From assembly GCA_021805985.1 (NCBI GenBank), contig JAJZDN010000003.1, positions 1 through 64,000 on the forward strand: 64,000 nt of DNA, read 5' to 3'. This DNA is from Planctomycetota bacterium (GTDB taxonomy: Bacteria; Planctomycetota; Phycisphaerae; WQYP01). The first letter of the stretch is position 1. The number at the start of each line of letters is the position of its first letter. A model generated the notes under the pieces. That model was given only the letters and a program-made list of their open reading frames with translations. It had not been told where the DNA came from and searched no databases. A program made the position numbers and the translations under genes. Shown here piece after piece: positions 1-9,173 of this stretch.

Positions 1-1
1 C

Positions 2-1405
2 GACCAGCGCAACCACAACTACGTCAATGAAATCACCCAACAGACCGTCACAGGAAGCAGCCCGGTTGTATTCCAATATGATGGAACCAATGGATCCAGC
101 AATGGCAATCTGACCAACGACGGCACCCTGATTTATTCTTATGATGCGCTCAACCGCCCGATTCAGATCAATCGAGTATCCGATGGCCTCATCATCGCGA
201 CATATCTGTACGACGCCATGGGTCGGCGTGTCAGGAAAACAATCTTCAATGGCGGCTTGACCGGTAATATCCCCAATGGCACAACCGATTACATCTGGCA
301 GGGATGGCAGGTCATGGAAGAGAGAAACCCCTTCGGTGGAACGGGTTCCACGGATACGCCGGTAAGGCAGCACATCTGGGGAACATACATTGATGAACTG
401 ACTCAACTCACAACGTTAGTTCCCCTCGGCCCCCAGAACCTGTCACCTGGAACCTATTACCTCTTACAAGATTTGCTGTATCGTGCCGTGGCGTTGACCA
501 ATTCCACCGGCGGCATCGTGGAAGCGTACGACACGGACGCCTATGGCAATACGATCATTTTCACCGGACCGGGTGCGGATGGTGTCTGGTTTACCAACGA
601 TGACGGGCAATCAGATTATGGCGCGAACGAAATCATCTTCTGCGGGTACCGCTACGATCCGGAAACTGAACTATATTACGTCCGCAATCGCACCTACAGT
701 CCTGTGCTGGGCCGCTGGCTGCAACGCGACCCGATCGGCTACGCCGCTGGCGTGAATTTGTATGAATACGTCGGTGGAAATCCGACGGTGAGCCTCGACC
801 CCGAAGGCGAATGCCCGGCCGGCTATCGGGAATTCTCGGCGGCGGGGATCGCGGCTTGGGAGGCGGCCCACGGTGCCAAGGCGATAAGAGAGTGGATTGA
901 TCCATCCCTCAGGGCACAATATCCCGCATCAGCGTTAAACACTGACCCATTTCTGCAGGGGCTTCCGATTCCGCCAATGTGCCGACCGAGCTGCAAACAA
1001 GTAGGATATTGCGTGAGCATTGGTTCTCCCGAGGCTGTCGGGAAATGGCATATCATCTCCCACGGAAAGTGGCACTATCTTCGTACAACTTACAAAATAA
1101 TAAAAGTTGGTCAAAGTGTGACGGAGGTCCCATCGCAAAACATATGTCAGCGCTCGGTGAAATATTGGAGCCATGTTCAGCGCCGTGGCGACTTTCTGGT
1201 CGAATACGCCTGTACGGGCTATGGCGTCAGTAACTCAGGCGGACTTCGGTCTGGTGTTCCCTATACCGTGGATGTGTATTACGGATCGGTCGACTGGCTA
1301 ACGAGCGGAAAAAGCGGGGGTACCTACGAACAGAGGAAGGCGTTTGACATTAACCCGCTCCTCGGCGGAGGAGGAGGAGGAGGAGGAGGAGGTGCCTGTG
1401 GATGA
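2..1405 (+). CDS. Rhs/YD-repeat polymorphic toxin, 3' part
   Basis: The reading frame is open from the first bases of the window, so this is the C-terminal ~467 residues of a larger Rhs protein whose start lies upstream. YD-type repeats (YDALNRPIQ, YDAMGRRVRK) lead into the conserved Rhs core end (YYVRNRTYSPVLGRWLQRDPIGY, split here as YYVRNRTYSP then GRWLQRDPIGY) and the junction DPEGE. After this comes a ~200-residue variable C-terminus with several Cys, which I do not recognise; in this family that part is the toxin, released from the Rhs shell. It ends in ten glycines encoded by a (GGA)8 tract. The next gene starts inside or just before the stop, as expected for a toxin/immunity pair. The toxin activity is unknown. 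Confidence 0.9.
   Translation, partial: DQRNHNYVNEITQQTVTGSSPVVFQYDGTNGSSNGNLTNDGTLIYSYDALNRPIQINRVSDGLIIATYLYDAMGRRVRKTIFNGGLTGNIPNGTTDYIWQGWQVMEERNPFGGTGSTDTPVRQHIWGTYIDELTQLTTLVPLGPQNLSPGTYYLLQDLLYRAVALTNSTGGIVEAYDTDAYGNTIIFTGPGADGVWFTNDDGQSDYGANEIIFCGYRYDPETELYYVRNRTYSPVLGRWLQRDPIGYAAGVNLYEYVGGNPTVSLDPEGECPAGYREFSAAGIAAWEAAHGAKAIREWIDPSLRAQYPASALNTDPFLQGLPIPPMCRPSCKQVGYCVSIGSPEAVGKWHIISHGKWHYLRTTYKIIKVGQSVTEVPSQNICQRSVKYWSHVQRRGDFLVEYACTGYGVSNSGGLRSGVPYTVDVYYGSVDWLTSGKSGGTYEQRKAFDINPLLGGGGGGGGGGACG
1367..1392 (+). promoter_or_regulatory. (GGA)8 tract: poly-Gly codons and extended Shine-Dalgarno
   Basis: Eight perfect GGA triplets followed by GG. In the rhs frame they encode most of a ten-glycine tail. 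The same bases form a long anti-16S-complementary purine tract that ends five bases before the GTG at 1398, the best start for the downstream membrane protein. Seen directly; the ribosome-binding role is inferred. Confidence 0.6.
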
Positions 1406-2240
1406 GGGTACGCGATCCGCTGGAGCAGTAGCGACAGGCTTGGCGGCTTGGCTTCCCCGCCAACCGCGGAAAGAATTAGGGGCCAGCGCAATTTTCTGCG
1501 CCACTGCAGCCCTATTCGTGGCGGATGCGATGAGCCTATGGGTGATACATTCCAGTCCAAATCAACTGCTAGCTATCCCGCGTTTCTGGATAACATGGTG
1601 GGTGGCAGTATTTCCCTCGCTCGCACTTTTTAATTCGGTCGGACTCTGCGCAGGGGTGTGTCTCTGGGTTGCACCAGAGGCCGCTAGTCTGAGTTTCTGT
1701 GGGCGCGCGGGACCTGTGCTCAGTCGCGCGGCGCCAGCCGCCACCTTGTTCGCGGCGGCCGACGCGGCGCTCACGGGACTCCGCGTGTTTTTCCCGCCGG
1801 TGGCTCTCTGCGGTGGGCCGTTACCGCTATGGGGGACAGTATCCTTCAGGGTGCTCGGAGGGATTAGCGCCCTTCTCGGTGTACCGTTCGCCTGGTGGCT
1901 TTGGCGTACCATACACGCGGTGGTTCACGTTCGCCTGCCCGGTTGGCAGCAGGCAGCGGCGGCGCTCTCATGGCTGTGGCCCGCACAACTCGCTGGCTGG
2001 CTTGTGGTCGGGGCCCTCCAAGCTTTTCCCATGCCTCCCGCAGGGGCTGACTTAAGCTCACCAGCGATCCTGTTCCTCCGGGTATCGGCCGGCGTATCAA
2101 CCCTGCTTCAATTTACGGCCGTGCTGATTGATGTAGTCTCTCTGGCGCTATTGCTGTCGCTTCAAGCACCTTATTGGGCCAGTCGGTGGGGACGCGAAAA
2201 GGCGGCATCCACCCGTTCCACTAGACGGGCGCGGGAATAG
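1398..2240 (+). CDS. Multi-pass membrane protein, candidate immunity to the Rhs toxin
   Basis: A ~280-residue protein that overlaps the rhs stop codon in another frame. I place the start at GTG 1398, five bases after the GGAGG repeats; the frame is open further upstream but would then begin with a run of Glu from the repeat. It has about five or six strongly hydrophobic stretches (for example around FWITWWVAVFPSLALF and the segment ending LLLSLQ) and an Arg-rich tail. No family is recognised. Position directly behind a toxin-bearing Rhs C-terminus is the usual place for the immunity gene, and a membrane immunity would fit a toxin acting on or across the inner membrane. Immunity is inferred from context only. 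Confidence 0.6.
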   Translation: MDEGTRSAGAVATGLAAWLPRQPRKELGASAIFCATAALFVADAMSLWVIHSSPNQLLAIPRFWITWWVAVFPSLALFNSVGLCAGVCLWVAPEAASLSFCGRAGPVLSRAAPAATLFAAADAALTGLRVFFPPVALCGGPLPLWGTVSFRVLGGISALLGVPFAWWLWRTIHAVVHVRLPGWQQAAAALSWLWPAQLAGWLVVGALQAFPMPPAGADLSSPAILFLRVSAGVSTLLQFTAVLIDVVSLALLLSLQAPYWASRWGREKAASTRSTRRARE

Positions 2241-2551
2241 GCCGAGGCGAATCGCCCCTCGAAATGCTGACGAGCGTATTGTGCTTGGCACCCCGCAATT
2301 GAAGCGGTAGAATCTAACTACCAAAACAACGCGAATCTTTTTAGGCAGGTTATGGTTGCACTGAACGAACAATTTCACCACAACGGCACACTGTCGAGGT
2401 TACTGGGGACGGGTTACCGGTTCCCGCGGGACGGGGAATCTGTGGAGGTTTTCAGTGATCATGGACCACGGGCCACGGATCAGAAAACTGGAAGTTCCGA
2501 TGACTTGTTCATTGATCATTGCTCATTGATATTTGAGCGCAGCGCCGGTGC
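2214..2551 (+). repeat. Leader repeat L1 of the rhs cassette array
   Basis: This stretch matches 4208-4556 in order and spacing: a GGGCGCGG-AATA block, CTTGGCAC, GGTAGAAT/TGTAGAAT, AGG(C)GGGTTATGGT with a shared MVALNE reading frame, a CACGGATCA-rich part, and the identical end TTGATATTTGAGCGCAGCG. The match is imperfect, so the copies are old. Its minus strand can also encode a peptide like that of the second copy (shared FVQC, HN, FPRPS). Confidence 0.65.
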
Positions 2552-3077
2552 CAATGACCTCATCTATTGCGGCTACCGATTCGATCCGGAAACAGAATTG
2601 TATTACGTCCGCAACCGCACCTACAGTCCCGTGCTGGGGCGCTGGCTGCAACGCGACCCGATTGGCTACGCGGGCGGAATCAATCTGTATGAGTATGTGG
2701 GTGGCCGGGCGGTGGCGGCGGCGGACCCGGAGGGCACGCTTTGGGGTGTGGTTGCTTACCTGTGCGGCCACTTGGCCGATCAAGCTGCGAAGGCGCTCCA
2801 GGACGCGTTGAAGGCGGCGGGTAAAGCCGCGGATGACCGGAGGAAAATAGGCGCTTGTCCGCCGCCGCATGGGCTGAAACTAATGCGCCTGGAACTGGAA
2901 CAAGCAGCGGAAGTGGCGAAGTCGGCGGAAGATGCGGCAAAAGCCGGCGCCCTTTTCGCAGCGATGGGCGCGCTGGGGTGCCAGGGTGCCCCGGCTTGGC
3001 CCCCGATAATACCGGGCATACCACCGCCGGAATGGTGGCCGGAGGGTGTACCGTTCCCAAGACTCGTACCAGAATAA
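2352..3077 (+). CDS. Orphan Rhs core fragment with C-terminus 2
   Basis: Residues 1-70 or so are translated leader repeat with no family likeness. From about residue 74 the protein is Rhs core (YCGYRFDPETELYY, then GRWLQRDPIGY), almost identical to the first rhs gene, beginning exactly after FERSAG. The C-terminus (~110 residues after ADPEG) is new: Ala-rich helices, a proline-rich end, and no recognised toxin fold. It lacks the Rhs shell needed for delivery, so it is either a silent donor cassette or an independently expressed fragment. The start at 2352 is the first ATG, shared with the sister cassette as MVALNE, and may not be used. A Sel1-repeat gene follows. Confidence 0.7.
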   Translation: MVALNEQFHHNGTLSRLLGTGYRFPRDGESVEVFSDHGPRATDQKTGSSDDLFIDHCSLIFERSAGANDLIYCGYRFDPETELYYVRNRTYSPVLGRWLQRDPIGYAGGINLYEYVGGRAVAAADPEGTLWGVVAYLCGHLADQAAKALQDALKAAGKAADDRRKIGACPPPHGLKLMRLELEQAAEVAKSAEDAAKAGALFAAMGALGCQGAPAWPPIIPGIPPPEWWPEGVPFPRLVPE

Positions 3078-3143
3078 CAGGTCAGTTTTTGCATGCGAAT
3101 CGGCCGTAACGGTAGCGGAGGCTCGCCACCAAGAGGAGCTATT

Positions 3144-4157
3144 ATGGCCAGTGCTGGGGGCCTTTTAAAATGTGTCTTGATGTCCGCACTGCTTGGGATG
3201 GCTGCGGCCTCCTCGCCCACGGGCGCAACGCATCACCCTGCTCGATCTCGCCCGGTGCCGGCACCCCGATACTGTCGCCAGGGTTTTGCCGCATTCCAGC
3301 AGCACGATTATGCGCGGGCAATGGGATTCTGGAGGAAGGCGGCTGCATACGGCAATGCGAAGGCAATGTGCAGCATCGGCTCACTTTACTCAAGGGGATT
3401 GGGGGTTCCGCGGGATTACGGGAAGGCGATGGTTTGGCTGCGGAAAGGCGCGGCGGCGGGCAACGGCGGCGCGATGTATGGCGTTGGCCTGCTCTATGAG
3501 CAGGGGTGGGGTGTCCCACGGAGCTACGGGAGGGCGTTGGCCTGGTACAGGAAGGGCGCAAAAGCGGGCAGCGCCGTTGCGATGTACGGGGTCGGACTAA
3601 TCTACGTGCGGGGCCTGGGCGTGCGGCAGAATTACCCGAATGCTCTGACATGGTTCAGAAGGGCGGCGCTGGCTGGCAACGCCATGGCTATGGCTCAGGT
3701 CGGGAGGATTTACGCCAGTGGCTTAGCGGGCAAGGAGAGCTATGCGCGGGCGTTCTTATGGTTCCGGAAGGCGGTTGCTGCGGGCAGCGCCTACGGGATT
3801 TACGGAATGGGCAAGCTTTATTATGATGGTACCGGGGTCGAAAGGGATTACAAGAGGGCGGCGGCCTGGTGGAGGAAAGGGGCCGATGCCGGTAACCCGT
3901 GGTCGATGTATGCACTCGGTGAGCTTTACGCCTACGGTTTGGGCGTGCCGCAGAGCGGGCGGAAAGCCCGATCATGCTGGCGCAAGGCTGCCGCGGCAGG
4001 TAACCATTATGCTAAGAGAGCCTTGGCAAAGGAGGTGCCCCACCCTTGGCAGTGGCTCCTCGGCTCGCGGATTGCGCTTCCCGTAATGGTAACCGCGCTC
4101 TTGGCCCTCATCATTTTTTTTGCGTCTGTGATAAAAAGGAGAAGGGGCAACCGCTGA
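3144..4157 (+). CDS. Secreted/membrane-anchored Sel1-repeat protein, candidate immunity
   Basis: Start at ATG 3144 with AGAGGAG five bases upstream; an earlier in-frame ATG at 3093 has no such site. The protein has a signal-type N-terminus (KCVLMSALLGMAAASS), then about seven Sel1-like repeats of ~36 residues (pattern A-W/F-x-RKAA-x-GN-x-x-AM-x-x-x-G-x-x-Y-x-x-G-x-GV), and a C-terminal membrane helix (VMVTALLALIIFFASV) followed by KRRRGNR. Sel1 arrays are protein-binding solenoids. Its place right behind an Rhs C-terminus makes immunity plausible, with the solenoid in the periplasm, but this is inference. Confidence 0.85.
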   Translation: MASAGGLLKCVLMSALLGMAAASSPTGATHHPARSRPVPAPRYCRQGFAAFQQHDYARAMGFWRKAAAYGNAKAMCSIGSLYSRGLGVPRDYGKAMVWLRKGAAAGNGGAMYGVGLLYEQGWGVPRSYGRALAWYRKGAKAGSAVAMYGVGLIYVRGLGVRQNYPNALTWFRRAALAGNAMAMAQVGRIYASGLAGKESYARAFLWFRKAVAAGSAYGIYGMGKLYYDGTGVERDYKRAAAWWRKGADAGNPWSMYALGELYAYGLGVPQSGRKARSCWRKAAAAGNHYAKRALAKEVPHPWQWLLGSRIALPVMVTALLALIIFFASVIKRRRGNR

Positions 4158-4207
4158 ACCGCCCCTTCGAGCAACTGTTTGGAATACGAAACACTGACAT
4201 CCACCAA

Positions 4208-4556
4208 TTCAACGGATGGGCGCGGAAATAAGGTGAAGTGAATTGACGCATGATTGTTGGTCGGCGTGGGTTCGCTTGGCACACTCCGGTGGAAGATGTA
4301 GAATTCATGAGGGAGAACAACGTCGGCTTTTTCAGGCGGGTTATGGTCGCATTGAACGAAAAACTTCACCACAAAGACACAACGACACGAAGCAGTGGGC
4401 GTCGGAATGCCGAATTCGGGTGCCATGATAAATCTGTGGGCGCGGCGGCCTCTGTGGTGAACGCCAATCACCAAAGATCAATGATCACGGATCAAAACTT
4501 CGGAATCTCCGCTGGCTTGTTCATTGATCCGTGCTCGTTGATATTTGAGCGCAGCG
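4208..4556 (+). repeat. Leader repeat L2 of the rhs cassette array
   Basis: Second copy of the L1 leader (2214-2551). It again sits between an immunity-type gene and an rhs fragment and ends in the same TTGATATTTGAGCGCAGCG, here joined to a different point of the rhs sequence (GGLTGNIPN rather than AND-LIYCGY). Confidence 0.65.
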
Positions 4557-5029
4557 GCGGCCTTACGGGCAATATCCCCAATGAAACCATCGATTATTTG
4601 TGGCAAGGCTGGCAAACGGTGGAGGAACGCGACCCCTTCGGCGGAACCGGTTCCACGGATACGCCGGTAAGGCAGTACATCTGGGGAACATACATTGATG
4701 AATGTATACAGCTTACCACCTACACCATTCTCGGCTCGCAATTGCCGCCCGCCGGCGCGTATTATCTGTTACAGGATTTGCTGTTCAGAGCGGAGGCCAT
4801 CTTGGCAGCCATATTAGCAGCATATCTTCTACACTTGGCTCGCCAAGCGGCGAAAGAAAAGTGCGAAAATGAAAAGCCAAAATGCAATCCATGCATACCG
4901 CCCGTGGGAACGGTTGGATACCTCTGGCATATTGTACCGCCAGCTAAACCGCACTGGCCGTTCCCGGGGGATCACCTCAATCTATTCGATATGCAACAGA
5001 GCCCGTCGCCAATATGTAAATGTTTCTGA
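4250..5029 (+). CDS. Orphan Rhs fragment with C-terminus 3
   Basis: The first ~100 residues are leader translation (an alternative start, ATG 4343, gives MVALNE as in the sister cassette). Residues ~104-180 match the first rhs gene closely (GLTGNIPN, WQGWQ, DPFGGTGSTDTPVRQ, IWGTYIDE, YYLLQDLLFRA). The match then stops before the core: the whole YYVRNR...RDPIGY block is absent, so this cannot form a normal Rhs plug. The new C-terminus has a hydrophobic Ala/Leu segment, then a Cys/His-rich end (KCNPC, PPVGTVGY, PHWPF, DHLNL, CKCF) resembling ends seen in other Rhs proteins; I cannot name its activity. A small gene follows at 5141. Confidence 0.65.
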   Translation: MIVGRRGFAWHTPVEDVEFMRENNVGFFRRVMVALNEKLHHKDTTTRSSGRRNAEFGCHDKSVGAAASVVNANHQRSMITDQNFGISAGLFIDPCSLIFERSGGLTGNIPNETIDYLWQGWQTVEERDPFGGTGSTDTPVRQYIWGTYIDECIQLTTYTILGSQLPPAGAYYLLQDLLFRAEAILAAILAAYLLHLARQAAKEKCENEKPKCNPCIPPVGTVGYLWHIVPPAKPHWPFPGDHLNLFDMQQSPSPICKCF

Positions 5030-5140
5030 CACAGGGACGGGACGGTAGCGCCTCCGCCGAAGCCAGGGTGGGTTCCGCGAGTTCCGGCTCTGGGCGGAGG
5101 GCCGGCTTAGAAATTGAATAACGCAGATAAGGAGTCTTTC

Positions 5141-5434
5141 ATGGGTGCCGATGCAAAGTTTTATTACCGTGGTGCCGAAATCCAAATTAACGATATAGTA
5201 AGAACGCCCGCTGGCACCGAGGGCGTGGTCGAAAAAATTATTCATCCGGGTTCTGAGGCATCGGCTGCATATTCCTGTCCGGACGGCGGCGTCTTAATTC
5301 GCGATCCGGTTGGGATGGGATATTTTGTTATGGTAATGCCTTACGGAAGCGACTGGGAAGATACTGACTTTATCAGGCGTGAAGCAGTTGCGCCTATTAA
5401 AGGATTTTCGGAAGATTCACAGGCGGATGAGTGA
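5141..5434 (+). CDS. Small acidic protein, candidate immunity to C-terminus 3
   Basis: A 97-residue protein. ATG 5141 has AAGGAG six bases upstream, which favours it over the in-frame ATG at 5114. No signal peptide or membrane helix; the sequence looks like a compact beta fold (FYYRGAEIQINDIVRTPAGTEG, then GVLIRDPVG, FVMVMPYG) with an acidic tail. It resembles KOW/SH3-like small immunity proteins in general character only. The role rests on position behind the Rhs C-terminus. Confidence 0.7.
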   Translation: MGADAKFYYRGAEIQINDIVRTPAGTEGVVEKIIHPGSEASAAYSCPDGGVLIRDPVGMGYFVMVMPYGSDWEDTDFIRREAVAPIKGFSEDSQADE

Positions 5435-5902
5435 TATTGGGAATCGGGCTCAGAGGGCCAGTCGGCAATACCTGGAATCTTGAGTAAAGAAGTAGCTTGC
5501 AACGGGAAACCTCAGATGGGACGGTATGCCACTGGTCGCGGTGCATGATATGTCGCATTGTACAATAAGATTACCAAGAACCACGCATACGCCAACACGA
5601 ATCAACTGTTTGCGGAATCTGGGGGACCCGAAAAATTTGTGGTTCGCTTTCCCACTCCCCTTGGCCGCCCTCCTCCGCTTTCTACGTGGCGGATTCCGTT
5701 GTATCTTCGTGCAGTCGCGGTGAAGCCCGTATTCGCCTATCAGTCGTTGTTCTCTGTTCATCGGGTTCCGCGAGGACGCGTAAGGAAATACATTGATCTT
5801 CACCGTACCGCGCACGGTGTTGAGGTAGGAGCCGAGATACCGAAAAGTTTTGAGAGTGACCGAAGCGGGGCCTAACCATTTTCGTGGACCGGGTGTTCTA
5901 GG
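5435..5902. other. Intergenic stretch, no gene recognised
   Basis: Open frames exist on both strands (for example 5450-5815 minus) but none shows a ribosome site, family likeness or consistent codon use. It may be decayed mobile or rhs-related DNA. Confidence 0.4.
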
Positions 5903-6130
5903 CGTACGACCATTGCTGGCGGCCTCGACGGAATTACCATCTGGGCGTTTGACACACTGGATCGCAAGATCAGTGAAACCTATCAGGATGGATCAATCCG
6001 GGAATTTGTTTATCGCAATCCCGGCCATTACTCGGACAGGCCAGGAGAACGGTTCCTCTTGGGTACTCACATTCCAGTGGGCCGCCCGGATTTATTGCCG
6101 CGCCTTGCAGAATCTGCCGAAAACACTCAT
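5903..6130 (+). pseudogene. Decayed Rhs YD-repeat remnant
   Basis: Read in the frame starting at 5921, the sequence gives WAFDTLDRKISETYQDG then SIREFVYRNPG, a typical YD-repeat pattern (FD-LDR-S-YDGS-FVY). No start, no flanking repeats and no core follow; the frame runs on into the upstream part of the YceI gene. This is best seen as a relic of rhs recombination at the edge of the array. Confidence 0.5.
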
Positions 6131-6208
6131 TTGAATAAGTTTGTTCAATATTCGATAATAGGTTCAGCGGTGCTGTGTAGCGCAGCGCCGATCATGCGGG
6201 GACTTTTT

Positions 6209-6886
6209 ATGCGATCGCCTTATTTTCCAAAGAGTTTACAAATCACTTTGTCCGTTATGGCGCTGATTCTGGGGTTGGGCACTTTTTCCAGCCCACTAAC
6301 GGCAGCCGTTGCCGCAACTGCCATAATCTACCATTCGGCAGCGGGCAGTACGGTAGTGGTACGCGGTCATTCGACCTTGCACAACTGGTCGGTGAGAACT
6401 TCGACCCTTACGGGGAGGATGATCCTAAGCGGGCATTGGCCCATGGTCCCCGGACAGAGTACAACTCTTGACCTGCTGCACGTGGCCATTCCCGTCTCCA
6501 CGCTCAAAGGCAGCGATGGAAGTGGGATGACCCGTACCATCCTGCACGCTCTGCATCACCGGCAACACCCGAACATCACCTTTATTTTAACACATGCGAA
6601 ACTGCAAAATGTGAAGCCAACAAAGTCCGGCACCTATATTTTTCACACCTCGGGATTATTAAAAATTAACGGGATTATGCGAAAGGAATCTTTAACGTTG
6701 CGGATCACTCCACAGCGTAGCGGAAAAGTGACGGTGCAAACGCGGGTAAAGTTGAAGATGCGCGATTTTGCTGTTACGCCGCCCACGACCATGCTGGGTA
6801 TTATTCGTTCCTCCAACGCCATAAAGATCATCGCCAAGTGGCAGTTGACAAAGGCGGCAGGCGGCCGTAAATCGGGTTCCAAATAA
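6209..6886 (+). CDS. YceI-like periplasmic lipocalin-fold protein
   Basis: A ~225-residue exported protein. I choose ATG 6209 (GGGGA seven bases upstream); ATG 6194 is also possible, and the frame stays open further up because of the rhs remnant. The signal segment (LQITLSVMALILGLGTFSSPLTAA) is followed by the YceI pattern: VVVRGHSTLHNW, pairs of alternating beta strands, ITFILT, YIFHTSGLLKINGI, and the C-terminal MRDFAV and IRSSNAI blocks. YceI proteins bind isoprenoid-type lipids in a lipocalin barrel; the ligand here is unknown. Gene context gives no further clue; hisD follows after 78 bases. Confidence 0.8.
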   Translation: MRSPYFPKSLQITLSVMALILGLGTFSSPLTAAVAATAIIYHSAAGSTVVVRGHSTLHNWSVRTSTLTGRMILSGHWPMVPGQSTTLDLLHVAIPVSTLKGSDGSGMTRTILHALHHRQHPNITFILTHAKLQNVKPTKSGTYIFHTSGLLKINGIMRKESLTLRITPQRSGKVTVQTRVKLKMRDFAVTPPTTMLGIIRSSNAIKIIAKWQLTKAAGGRKSGSK

Positions 6887-6925
6887 GTCCGAGAATTCAG
6901 ACCTGCCGATTATTTGAAAAAACGC

Positions 6926-6931
6926 TATAAT
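6926..6931 (+). promoter_or_regulatory. Possible -10 box for hisD-lpxI
   Basis: A perfect TATAAT lies 33 bases before the hisD start. No convincing -35 hexamer sits at the usual distance, so the call is weak. Confidence 0.3.
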
Positions 6932-6964
6932 CAAACTCCTGGCTAAATTGGAGTGTAAAATCTC

Positions 6965-8329
6965 ATGCAGGTAATTCCGATTCTTCGGGCGGATCACCCG
7001 GACGGACAAGAACATATTTCCCAGATTAAGTCGCGATTATCGCTGGCCCCCCTGCTGTTGTCTGGCTTAGATGCGCAGGCCGAAAGCCTGACCGTGCAGG
7101 TGCAGCGGATTATCGCCGATGTGCGCCGCGCCGGGGACGACGCCGTGGTGCAATACACCCGCCGCTTTGACTATCCGGAATGTACCTTACAGCACCTCCG
7201 GGTACCGCAGGAGCAAATAGACGTTGCGGTAAAAAACGCCGATGCAAAATTTCTCGCGGCTTTAGATATTTCCATCGCCAATGTCCGACGGTATCAGCAG
7301 GCCATGCTGCCTCACGCACCGGCCCCCATCAGACCTCTGGGAACTGATAGTGACGCGGCCATGCTGGCGATGCGGTATGAGCCGCTGAAACGGGTAGGCG
7401 TTTATGTTCCGGGCGGTGCCGGGGCGTATCCCTCCACGGTGGTGATGACCGTGGTGCCGGCCCAGGTGGCGGGTGTGGAAAGCATTTGTATTGCCAGCCC
7501 CATGCGCGGCGGGCAAGTGGCACCGGCGGTCCTGGTGGCAGCGGCGCGGCTGGGCGTGCGCGAGGTCTACGCTATGGGCGGTCCGCAAGCGGTGGCGGCG
7601 ATGGCTTTTGGCACCCAAACCATTCCGGCTGTGGATAAAATTGTTGGACCGGGCAACAGCTACGTCCAACTGGCTAAAAAGGAACTTTTTGGCATTGTGG
7701 ATATTGACAGCTTTGCCGGCCCCAGTGAAGTCATCGTTCTGGCGGATGATTCTGCAGACGCACGCGTAGTGGCGGCTGAGTTACTGGCCCAGGCGGAACA
7801 CGCACCGGGCAGTTGCCTGCTGATTACGCCGAACCTGAGTCTGGCCCAGAGCGTGGAACTGGAACTGCAATCGCAATTGGCGTTACTGCCCCGCCGGGAG
7901 TTGACCACCAAGGCCCTGCAATATGCCAGTGCGTTGATTGTGACAACAGATATGGAATCAGCTATTAAACTCGTCAATGATTTCGCCCCGGAACATTTGC
8001 AGATCACCACGCGACAGTCGCGCTGTGATGCGGCCAAAATTCACCACGCCGGCGCGATATTTATCGGAGCCTATACCCCGGTGGCCGCCGGGGATTATCT
8101 GGCTGGCCCATCGCATGTATTGCCGACTTCGGGCACCGGGCGGTTTTTCAGCGGCCTGTCGGCCGAAAGTTTCCGCAAACGCATCAGCATCGTGGAGTTG
8201 GATGCCGGTGCGTTGCAGGCGCTGGGCGGAGCTATTTGCGATTTTGCCCGGACGGAAGGCTTTGACGCCCACGCCCGGTCCGTAGAAGCACGACTCAAGC
8301 AGAAGGGGCCGGACCATGGCGTTGGCTGA
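6965..8329 (+). CDS. hisD: Histidinol dehydrogenase
   Basis: Zn- and NAD-dependent enzyme of the last two steps of histidine synthesis, oxidising L-histidinol to L-histidine in the cytoplasm. Length (454 residues) is slightly above the usual ~430. Clear family blocks: VPGGAGAYPSTVVMT, GPGNSYVQLAKKE, DSFAGPSE, EHAPGSCLL, APEHLQI with the catalytic His, and GDYLAGPSHVLPTSG. A GGAG lies eleven bases before ATG 6965. The last 14 bases overlap lpxI, so the two genes are cotranscribed although their pathways differ. No other his gene is in the window. Confidence 0.97.
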   Translation: MQVIPILRADHPDGQEHISQIKSRLSLAPLLLSGLDAQAESLTVQVQRIIADVRRAGDDAVVQYTRRFDYPECTLQHLRVPQEQIDVAVKNADAKFLAALDISIANVRRYQQAMLPHAPAPIRPLGTDSDAAMLAMRYEPLKRVGVYVPGGAGAYPSTVVMTVVPAQVAGVESICIASPMRGGQVAPAVLVAAARLGVREVYAMGGPQAVAAMAFGTQTIPAVDKIVGPGNSYVQLAKKELFGIVDIDSFAGPSEVIVLADDSADARVVAAELLAQAEHAPGSCLLITPNLSLAQSVELELQSQLALLPRRELTTKALQYASALIVTTDMESAIKLVNDFAPEHLQITTRQSRCDAAKIHHAGAIFIGAYTPVAAGDYLAGPSHVLPTSGTGRFFSGLSAESFRKRISIVELDAGALQALGGAICDFARTEGFDAHARSVEARLKQKGPDHGVG

Positions 8330-9173
8330 TGCAGAACCCATCGGCCTGATCGCGGGACAGGGCACGTTGCCACTGGCGGTAGCCCGCGGGCTTAAAGCAG
8401 CAGGTCACCCGGTAATTTGCCTGGGTCTATCCGGCCAAAGCCGCGAGGAGGAACTGTCTGCACAGTGTGACGTTTTTCATCGGGTTGGATTAATTCGCCT
8501 GAATCAATGGATTCGCGTGTTGCGGCGACACAGCGCCCGGCGGACGGTAATGGTTGGCAGAGTCGCCAAGGAAAGAATGTATGATCGGTTTCACATGTTG
8601 CGGTATATGCCCGACTGGCGTACGGCCCGGCTTTGGCTGGTGCGGCTGCGGCATGACAAGCGCAGCGACCGATTGCTGCGTGCTGTGGCCGATGAACTGG
8701 CCAGCGGTGGAGTAGAAATAATGGACGCACTGCCCTATATCCCGGAACTGTTGGCGGCCAGCGGAGTTATGACGCGCTGCCAGCCCAGCGCGGGCATGAT
8801 GGCCGATATCGACTTTGCCTGGCCGTTACTGCGGCAAGTCAATATGCTTTTGATCGGTCAGAGTCTGGCCTGCAAGGACCGGGAAATCATCGCGGTAGAG
8901 GCCGTCGAAGGTACGGATCGCATGATTGAGCGCACGGGGACGTTGTGCAAACGCGGCGGATGGGTCCTCTGCAAGGCCAGTAACCCGAATCAGGATATTC
9001 GATTTGACGTACCCACCATCGGGCCTGCTACTATTGAACGCCTGAAGAAATTCGGTGCTGCGGCGGTGGTGGTGGAAACTGGGAGAACTATTATGCTTGA
9101 GAAGGCGGAACTGTTGAAATTGGCCGATGAGTTGGGCGTTGCGGTCATCGGAAGGCCAACGGGCGGGACTTAG
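8316..9173 (+). CDS. lpxI: UDP-2,3-diacylglucosamine pyrophosphatase LpxI
   Basis: A 285-residue LpxI/DUF1009 protein, which hydrolyses UDP-2,3-diacylglucosamine to lipid X in lipid A synthesis at the inner face of the membrane. Diagnostic parts are the N-terminal IGLIAGQGTLPL, VGRVAKERMYD, the DALPYIPELLA hinge region, and the C-terminal catalytic domain with KDREIIAVEAVEGTDRMIER, and TIGPATIERL. ATG 8316 lies within the end of hisD with AAGGGG eight bases upstream. LpxI replaces LpxH in many non-enterobacterial Gram-negatives, so this gene is good evidence for an outer membrane with lipid A. Confidence 0.93.
   Translation: MALADAEPIGLIAGQGTLPLAVARGLKAAGHPVICLGLSGQSREEELSAQCDVFHRVGLIRLNQWIRVLRRHSARRTVMVGRVAKERMYDRFHMLRYMPDWRTARLWLVRLRHDKRSDRLLRAVADELASGGVEIMDALPYIPELLAASGVMTRCQPSAGMMADIDFAWPLLRQVNMLLIGQSLACKDREIIAVEAVEGTDRMIERTGTLCKRGGWVLCKASNPNQDIRFDVPTIGPATIERLKKFGAAAVVVETGRTIMLEKAELLKLADELGVAVIGRPTGGT

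Follow-up and report, generated by a model that had tools for sequence, protein, structure and literature searches.

Why should fragments of rhs genes be preceded, again and again, by the same short leader? The question is raised by the left end of a 64-kb window, the stretch of DNA analyzed here, with which contig C33 of a planctomycete genome (4.68 Mb, 197 contigs) begins. There, the 3' end of a main rhs gene and an overlapping open reading frame (ORF) for a membrane protein are followed by two cassettes, numbered 2 and 3, each composed of a leader, an rhs piece, a new C-terminus and a small gene. A preliminary description of the DNA had read this array as toxin/immunity cassettes with the repeated leader as the unusual part; every element of the array was found, and the leader turned out to recur across congeneric genomes. 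The explanation that we favor, at a probability of roughly 0.62, is that each such orphan module would combine an expression leader, an independent small toxin gene and an immunity gene, and that modules would move between long rhs genes and orphan contexts.

Recurrence, frame and anatomy of the leader

The 5' module of the leader was described by a sequence model (R1), which was built partly from leaders that it then detected. R1 gave 118 matches, present in all eight of the congeneric genomes, and the same genomes hold about 130 rhs core-end places. The genomes that share this rhs core are metagenome-assembled genomes of Planctomycetota (Phycisphaerae). A core end followed the leader on the same strand within 1.8 kb in 54 cases, compared with about 0.5 expected from the match densities. 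A leader was located upstream of 51 of the 106 short rhs ORFs (700 aa or fewer) but of only 1 of the 25 longer ones; the leaderless short ORFs include some cut by contig ends, 3' parts of long genes (such as the main gene of the window) and ORFs with sub-threshold leaders. Within the 64 kb of the window, the two leaders were the only matches to R1, and they are 64% identical over 358 aligned columns.

An rhs piece lies within 900 nt downstream of 54 of the 113 unique leaders. For 53 of these 54, one open frame runs from the leader ATG into the rhs piece, whereas in the two alternative frames only 10% of these gaps are open. At the single exception (L107), another in-frame start, resembling that of a leader, lies closer to the piece. 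In-frame pieces begin at core residues anywhere from 1 to 238, and because the 53 leaders span 22 clusters at 80% identity, the frame has been kept in many separate cases. Outside the genus, leader matches were found in 8 of 20 genomes from other genera of the same family, often with an in-frame rhs piece, and in 0 of 7 genomes from other families of the class; given this distribution, the leader is a family-level feature.

Aligned leader copies of the window genome have a −35 element (TTGGCA, TTTGCA or TTGCGA), a spacer of 16–17 bp and a −10 element (TAGAAT, TATGAT or TACAAT). Downstream of the −10 element, about 38 nt are followed by an AGG-rich Shine–Dalgarno-like stretch and then by ATGGTYGCA. 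A promoter match, defined as at least 8 of 12 positions of the sigma-70 hexamers with the −10 element ending 30–45 nt before the ATG, was present in 88 of 110 leaders and in 4% of shuffled sequences, a count that signifies consistency, not independent discovery, because the leaders were found by similarity. The two leader promoters of the window are the joint top two of five promoter-like matches in 6 kb.

Between the ATG and the rhs piece, the leader is filled with dispersed repeats, some of which also occur elsewhere without the leader start (contigs C125, C161, C194 and C175). The best-conserved filler terminates in GAGCGCAGCGCC at the junction, and the peptide encoded across one leader–core junction reads ...CSLIFERSAGANDLIYCGYR... 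Leader types vary in promoter spacer and filler and have the ATG region in common. Leader-type repeats beginning GATCACGGATCA and TTGTTCATTGATC were also observed outside leaders at L080 (G000:C125), L083, L084 and L085, with several copies on C125. A variable-gap pattern for the leader 3' segment returned no match, the pattern probably having been badly designed.

The DNA of the two main leader types can be aligned but is read in shifted frames, each in frame with its own rhs piece. Pooled over six related pairs, the ratio of nonsynonymous to synonymous substitution rates (Ka/Ks) was about 0.75 for the leader and about 0.45 for the core piece plus C-terminus; for a small sample, this fits a leader that would be read for its start and its openness, not for its peptide. 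With a near-neutral Ka/Ks and shifted frames, a functional conserved leader peptide is unlikely. Two further candidates were rejected. A structured RNA or riboswitch found no Rfam match, and 0 of 18 predicted pairs in the 3' segment had compensatory changes. Nor does the leader represent the 5' end of full-length rhs genes, with orphans as internal deletions, as the long genes inspected start with a Pro/His/Cys-rich sequence.

Exchange of modules and the array of the window

Clustering of the C-termini of 119 rhs ORFs produced several groups that mix long-gene and leader-borne contexts. A leader-orphan of genome G005 (contig C19) and a long rhs gene of genome G007 (contig C76, 992–1013 codons) are 94.5% identical over 2007 nt. 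The shared stretch opens with GCTGCAACGCGACCC, within the core at 90 nt from its end, and continues through the predicted toxin and the immunity gene, and the two loci differ both upstream and downstream of it. To judge by the two loci, this pair shows module transfer, of which it gives neither the direction nor the rate. The exchanged C-termini that the preliminary description had asked for in related genomes were thus found, in long/orphan pairs including this one. For the window itself, the main tip recurs in genome G006, and for cassettes 2 and 3 the likeness to other genes is confined to parts of the C-termini.

Features of the window discussed in the text (all coordinates are window positions)
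Feature	Position	Strand	Remarks
Main rhs gene, 3' part	1..1405	+	Rhs core 2–811, C-terminus 1 812–1405
Membrane protein ORF, immunity candidate for C-terminus 1	1344..2240	+	overlaps rhs end; true start uncertain
Leader 2, conserved 5' module (promoter, ribosome-binding stretch, start codon)	2283..2375	+	model R1, E 7e-20
Leader 2, sigma-70-like promoter TTGGCA-17-TAGAAT	2285..2313	+	10/12 hexamer match
Leader 2, encoded peptide MVALNEQFHH...	2352..2546	+	in frame with rhs piece
Leader 2, 3' segment GATCA...GAGCGCAGC	2474..2548	+	dispersed repeat directly abutting rhs piece
rhs core piece, cassette 2	2547..2735	+	core residues 207–269; 83% nucleotide identity to main gene
C-terminus 2, predicted toxin	2736..3077	+	no Pfam match
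Sel1-repeat protein, immunity candidate 2	3144..4157	+	Sel1 Pfam E 8.8e-46; ORF open from 3093
Leader 3, conserved 5' module	4272..4366	+	model R1
Leader 3, sigma-70-like promoter TTGGCA-17-TAGAAT	4276..4304	+	promoter scan
Leader 3, encoded peptide MVALNEKLHHKDTTTR...	4343..4552	+	in frame with rhs piece
Leader 3, 3' segment	4486..4560	+	dispersed repeat
rhs core piece, cassette 3	4553..4789	+	core residues 83–161; without conserved core end
C-terminus 3, predicted toxin	4790..5029	+	no Pfam match
97-residue soluble protein, immunity candidate 3	5141..5434	+	AAGGAG 7 nt before ATG 5141
Fourth rhs fragment, a decayed mid-gene stretch of rhs	5879..6055	+	47% identity, 62 aa, E 2e-10
Conserved chromosomal flank (YceI-like, hisD, lpxI-like)	6110..8640	+	flank kept in five congeners

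The main rhs gene, which matches TIGR03696 (Rhs_assc_core) with an E value of 5e-20, is truncated by the start of the contig. The end of contig C167 matches the start of the window over 127 nt, and C167 carries the preceding 1818 codons; on the join that this overlap suggests between C167 and C33, the complete gene would have about 2240 codons. Counterparts of C-terminus 1 and of the membrane protein gene, 89.8% identical over 2024 nt, are found in G006 behind an rhs gene of 2163 residues, on a contig other than the G006 hisD contig. This match stops at window position 2295, just beyond the −35 box of leader 2, and it corrects the preliminary placing of that leader at 2214–2551. The repeated leader is real, but the first ~80 nt (2214–2295) belong to the 3' end of the first module: leader 2 proper begins at about 2283, because in the congener, which lacks cassette 2 there, the stretch 2214–2295 likewise follows the immunity gene. 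No match to C-terminus 1 was found in the PDB. At 1369–1396, where C-terminus 1 ends, a run of GGA repeats is read as poly-Gly in the rhs frame and as poly-Glu in the frame that overlaps it; slippage might occur here between the toxin and the immunity candidate. In the congener (L106), a transposase-like remnant and a gene for a four-helix-bundle protein (23S intervening-sequence type) were seen by eye after the main rhs and membrane protein genes.

The two cassette pieces represent different parts of the 270-residue core. That of cassette 2 matches TIGR03696 (E 2e-19), and no such match was obtained for that of cassette 3. The cassette C-termini differ from that of the main gene, and only their pre-toxin segments are common to other rhs genes: the first ~45 residues of C-terminus 2 are 78% like a leader-orphan of G006, and the first ~70 nt of C-terminus 3 are 83–84% identical to rhs C-termini on contigs C54 and C98. 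A comparison of C-terminus 3 with plasmids gave no match. The Sel1-repeat protein has an N-terminal hydrophobic segment and a C-terminal membrane segment, and its ATG is preceded by AAGAGGAG, as read from the sequence.

Downstream of the array, the yceI/hisD/lpxI flank is present in five congeners, from ~6110 or further in, with no adjacent rhs in the stretch compared, and because of this the rhs array is a local insertion or replacement in the source genome. A shared position of the array near hisD was rejected on the same comparison. The repeat at the cassette end (4190–4290) was considered as a general seam and rejected, since only one other good copy was found in four genomes. The fourth rhs fragment lies right beside the point (~6110) from which the gene order of the congeners is followed again.

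What the leader may do

Because the leader brings a promoter and a ribosome-binding stretch together with an ATG that is almost always in frame, and because it also precedes genes without rhs sequence, a role in expression and translation start explains it better than one as a recombination seam. Its promoter would drive transcription of the displaced module, and translation, begun at the leader ATG, would pass through the filler and the remaining core before it reached the toxin, behind which the immunity gene lies. A displaced tip would in this way be converted into a small gene for leader peptide, core remnant and toxin, and toxin and immunity protein would be made together in the cell, like a toxin–antitoxin pair. 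Recombination in the conserved core end would let modules pass, immunity gene included, between long rhs genes (as a weapon) and the leader (as an orphan). We infer that the leader is transcribed and translated, that the product is toxic and that the neighboring gene product neutralizes it. By their position and their own start signals, the neighboring genes are candidates for specific immunity, and the likeness to type II toxin–antitoxin systems is suggested by gene order and start signals. An orphan toxin, lacking the remainder of the Rhs protein, is unlikely to be delivered, and the most likely role is therefore intracellular, either as a toxin–antitoxin-like pair or in keeping immunity expressed.

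The leader would also serve as a general start module of such islands, because solo immunity-like genes and a RelE-type toxin–antitoxin pair also follow it. Genes without rhs sequence behind leaders encode Sel1-repeat, other immunity-like, RelE-family and membrane proteins. Behind the RelE-family gene (Pfam E 6e-8) comes a short helix-turn-helix gene, identified by a weak match. At L066 and L207 (G000:C160 and G007:C74), the leader ORF ends 9 nt before the RelE ATG, with distances taken from offsets, which suggests translational coupling; at G000:C44 and G004:C171, an in-frame start lies near the end of the leader ORF.

Several points weigh against our explanation. About half of the leaders precede genes without rhs sequence, and some of these genes are ordinary or unclear (clpB, transposase). 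The leaders share descent, so that the counts given above are not independent events, and the model was, as stated, derived in part from the leaders that it finds. Most of the sequences are metagenome-assembled, and rhs repeats are easily misassembled. The three C-termini of the window matched no known toxin family, and only one curated toxin match (Ntox24, E 4e-9) was obtained among the leader-orphan C-termini tested. A broader version of the proposal, namely a lineage-wide capture in which displaced toxin/immunity fragments would regularly be joined in frame to a repeat-built start module, turning nearly any rhs fragment into a working gene, is for the present a long shot.

The leader might instead be kept mainly for the expression of immunity, the intervening toxin piece being translated and harmless or decaying. 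The leaders that directly precede immunity-like genes without a toxin piece agree with such an immunity bank, as do the 9-nt spacings and the nearby in-frame starts described above, and an expressed orphan immunity gene with a silent toxin is known from E. coli EC93 (PMC3150448). However, the frame kept through leader and core piece and the constraint on the toxin part suggest that the toxin ORF itself is used, and immunity candidates 2 and 3 of the window have Shine–Dalgarno-like sequences of their own; we regard this account as unlikely.

The preliminary description had proposed a silent reservoir of spare tips, in which untranslated cassettes would be used after recombination onto the main rhs gene and the leader would supply extra homology. 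Such use is documented in Salmonella (PMC3967940), C-termini do occur here in both long and orphan contexts, and one exchange point was mapped within the core. The rhs pieces were said to be nearly identical to the main gene, which was wrong, because DNA identity is only 83% over 158 nt for cassette 2 and 79% over 164 nt for cassette 3; in the documented Salmonella case, identity is 95% over 522 bp (PMC3967940). Nor can cassette 3 be a simple spare tip: its homology covers core residues 83–161, and recombination there would delete the core end. Moreover, an untranslated store needs no promoter, start codon or frame, yet the frame is kept. Thus, of the proposal that the cassettes are swappable tips, the exchange of contexts stands, but the homology of ~80% and the lacking core end of cassette 3 do not suit it, and a reservoir of this kind is quite improbable.

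Least of all do we expect the leader to be a promoter-bearing dispersed or mobile repeat with rhs fusions as by-products of repeat-driven rearrangement, a very unlikely account that draws on the filler repeats found without the leader start and on the variable leader types around a shared ATG region, but against which stand the kept frame, the strong enrichment of leaders at short versus long rhs ORFs, the 3' segment without covariation support for an RNA structure, and the outcome of a search of positions 1–8000 for inverted repeats of at least 25 nt, in which none were found, so that terminal repeats like those of miniature inverted-repeat transposable elements were not seen.

Comparison with known orphan modules

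Orphan polymorphic-toxin modules could be silent reserves, banks of immunity genes or functional toxin–antitoxin genes. Dozens of orphans with the same promoter and start module, in frame at many core break points, argue for expression, and the leader-orphan lineage offers a large natural test set. It also provides a concrete case of one toxin/immunity module in two settings, on a long rhs gene in the first species and behind a start module in the second. No published description of such a leader was found in the open-access literature.

Orphan rhs-CT/rhsI and cdiA-CT/cdiI modules are known from E. coli EC93, Salmonella LT2 and Dickeya, usually without translation initiation signals (PMC3150448, PMC3967940). 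Like these, the modules described here consist of a core fragment, a new C-terminus and a neighboring immunity candidate, arrayed behind a full gene, and they exchange between full-length and orphan contexts. A partial core homologous to full rhs, a distinct C-terminus and, for the group, the presence of the module on a longer rhs gene were all found. Unlike the known orphans, those described here have a recurring promoter, ribosome-binding stretch and in-frame ATG, and may retain any part of the core. The usual, although not absolute, absence of initiation signals does not hold for them, and because a promoter, a Shine–Dalgarno-like stretch and an in-frame ATG are present, they represent a variant, not the standard orphan form.

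The rhs orphan of Salmonella Typhimurium is a type II toxin–antitoxin module whose promoter (P2) and CTG start both lie within the rhs core (PMC7043789). Expression of the toxin inside the cell together with its immunity protein, which was tested there, would on sequence grounds apply here as well. P2 and the CTG are common to the main and orphan genes in Salmonella, whereas the leader described here is a separate, non-rhs element, absent from the long rhs genes inspected. A further likeness is to the standalone polymorphic toxin cassettes of Zhang et al. 2012 (PMC3482391), which, in the portion of that paper drawn on here, resemble these modules in toxin–immunity order, in forming arrays and in recombination with a constant 5' body. 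That portion mentions no recurring expression leader, whereas the leader of the planctomycete modules is lineage-wide.

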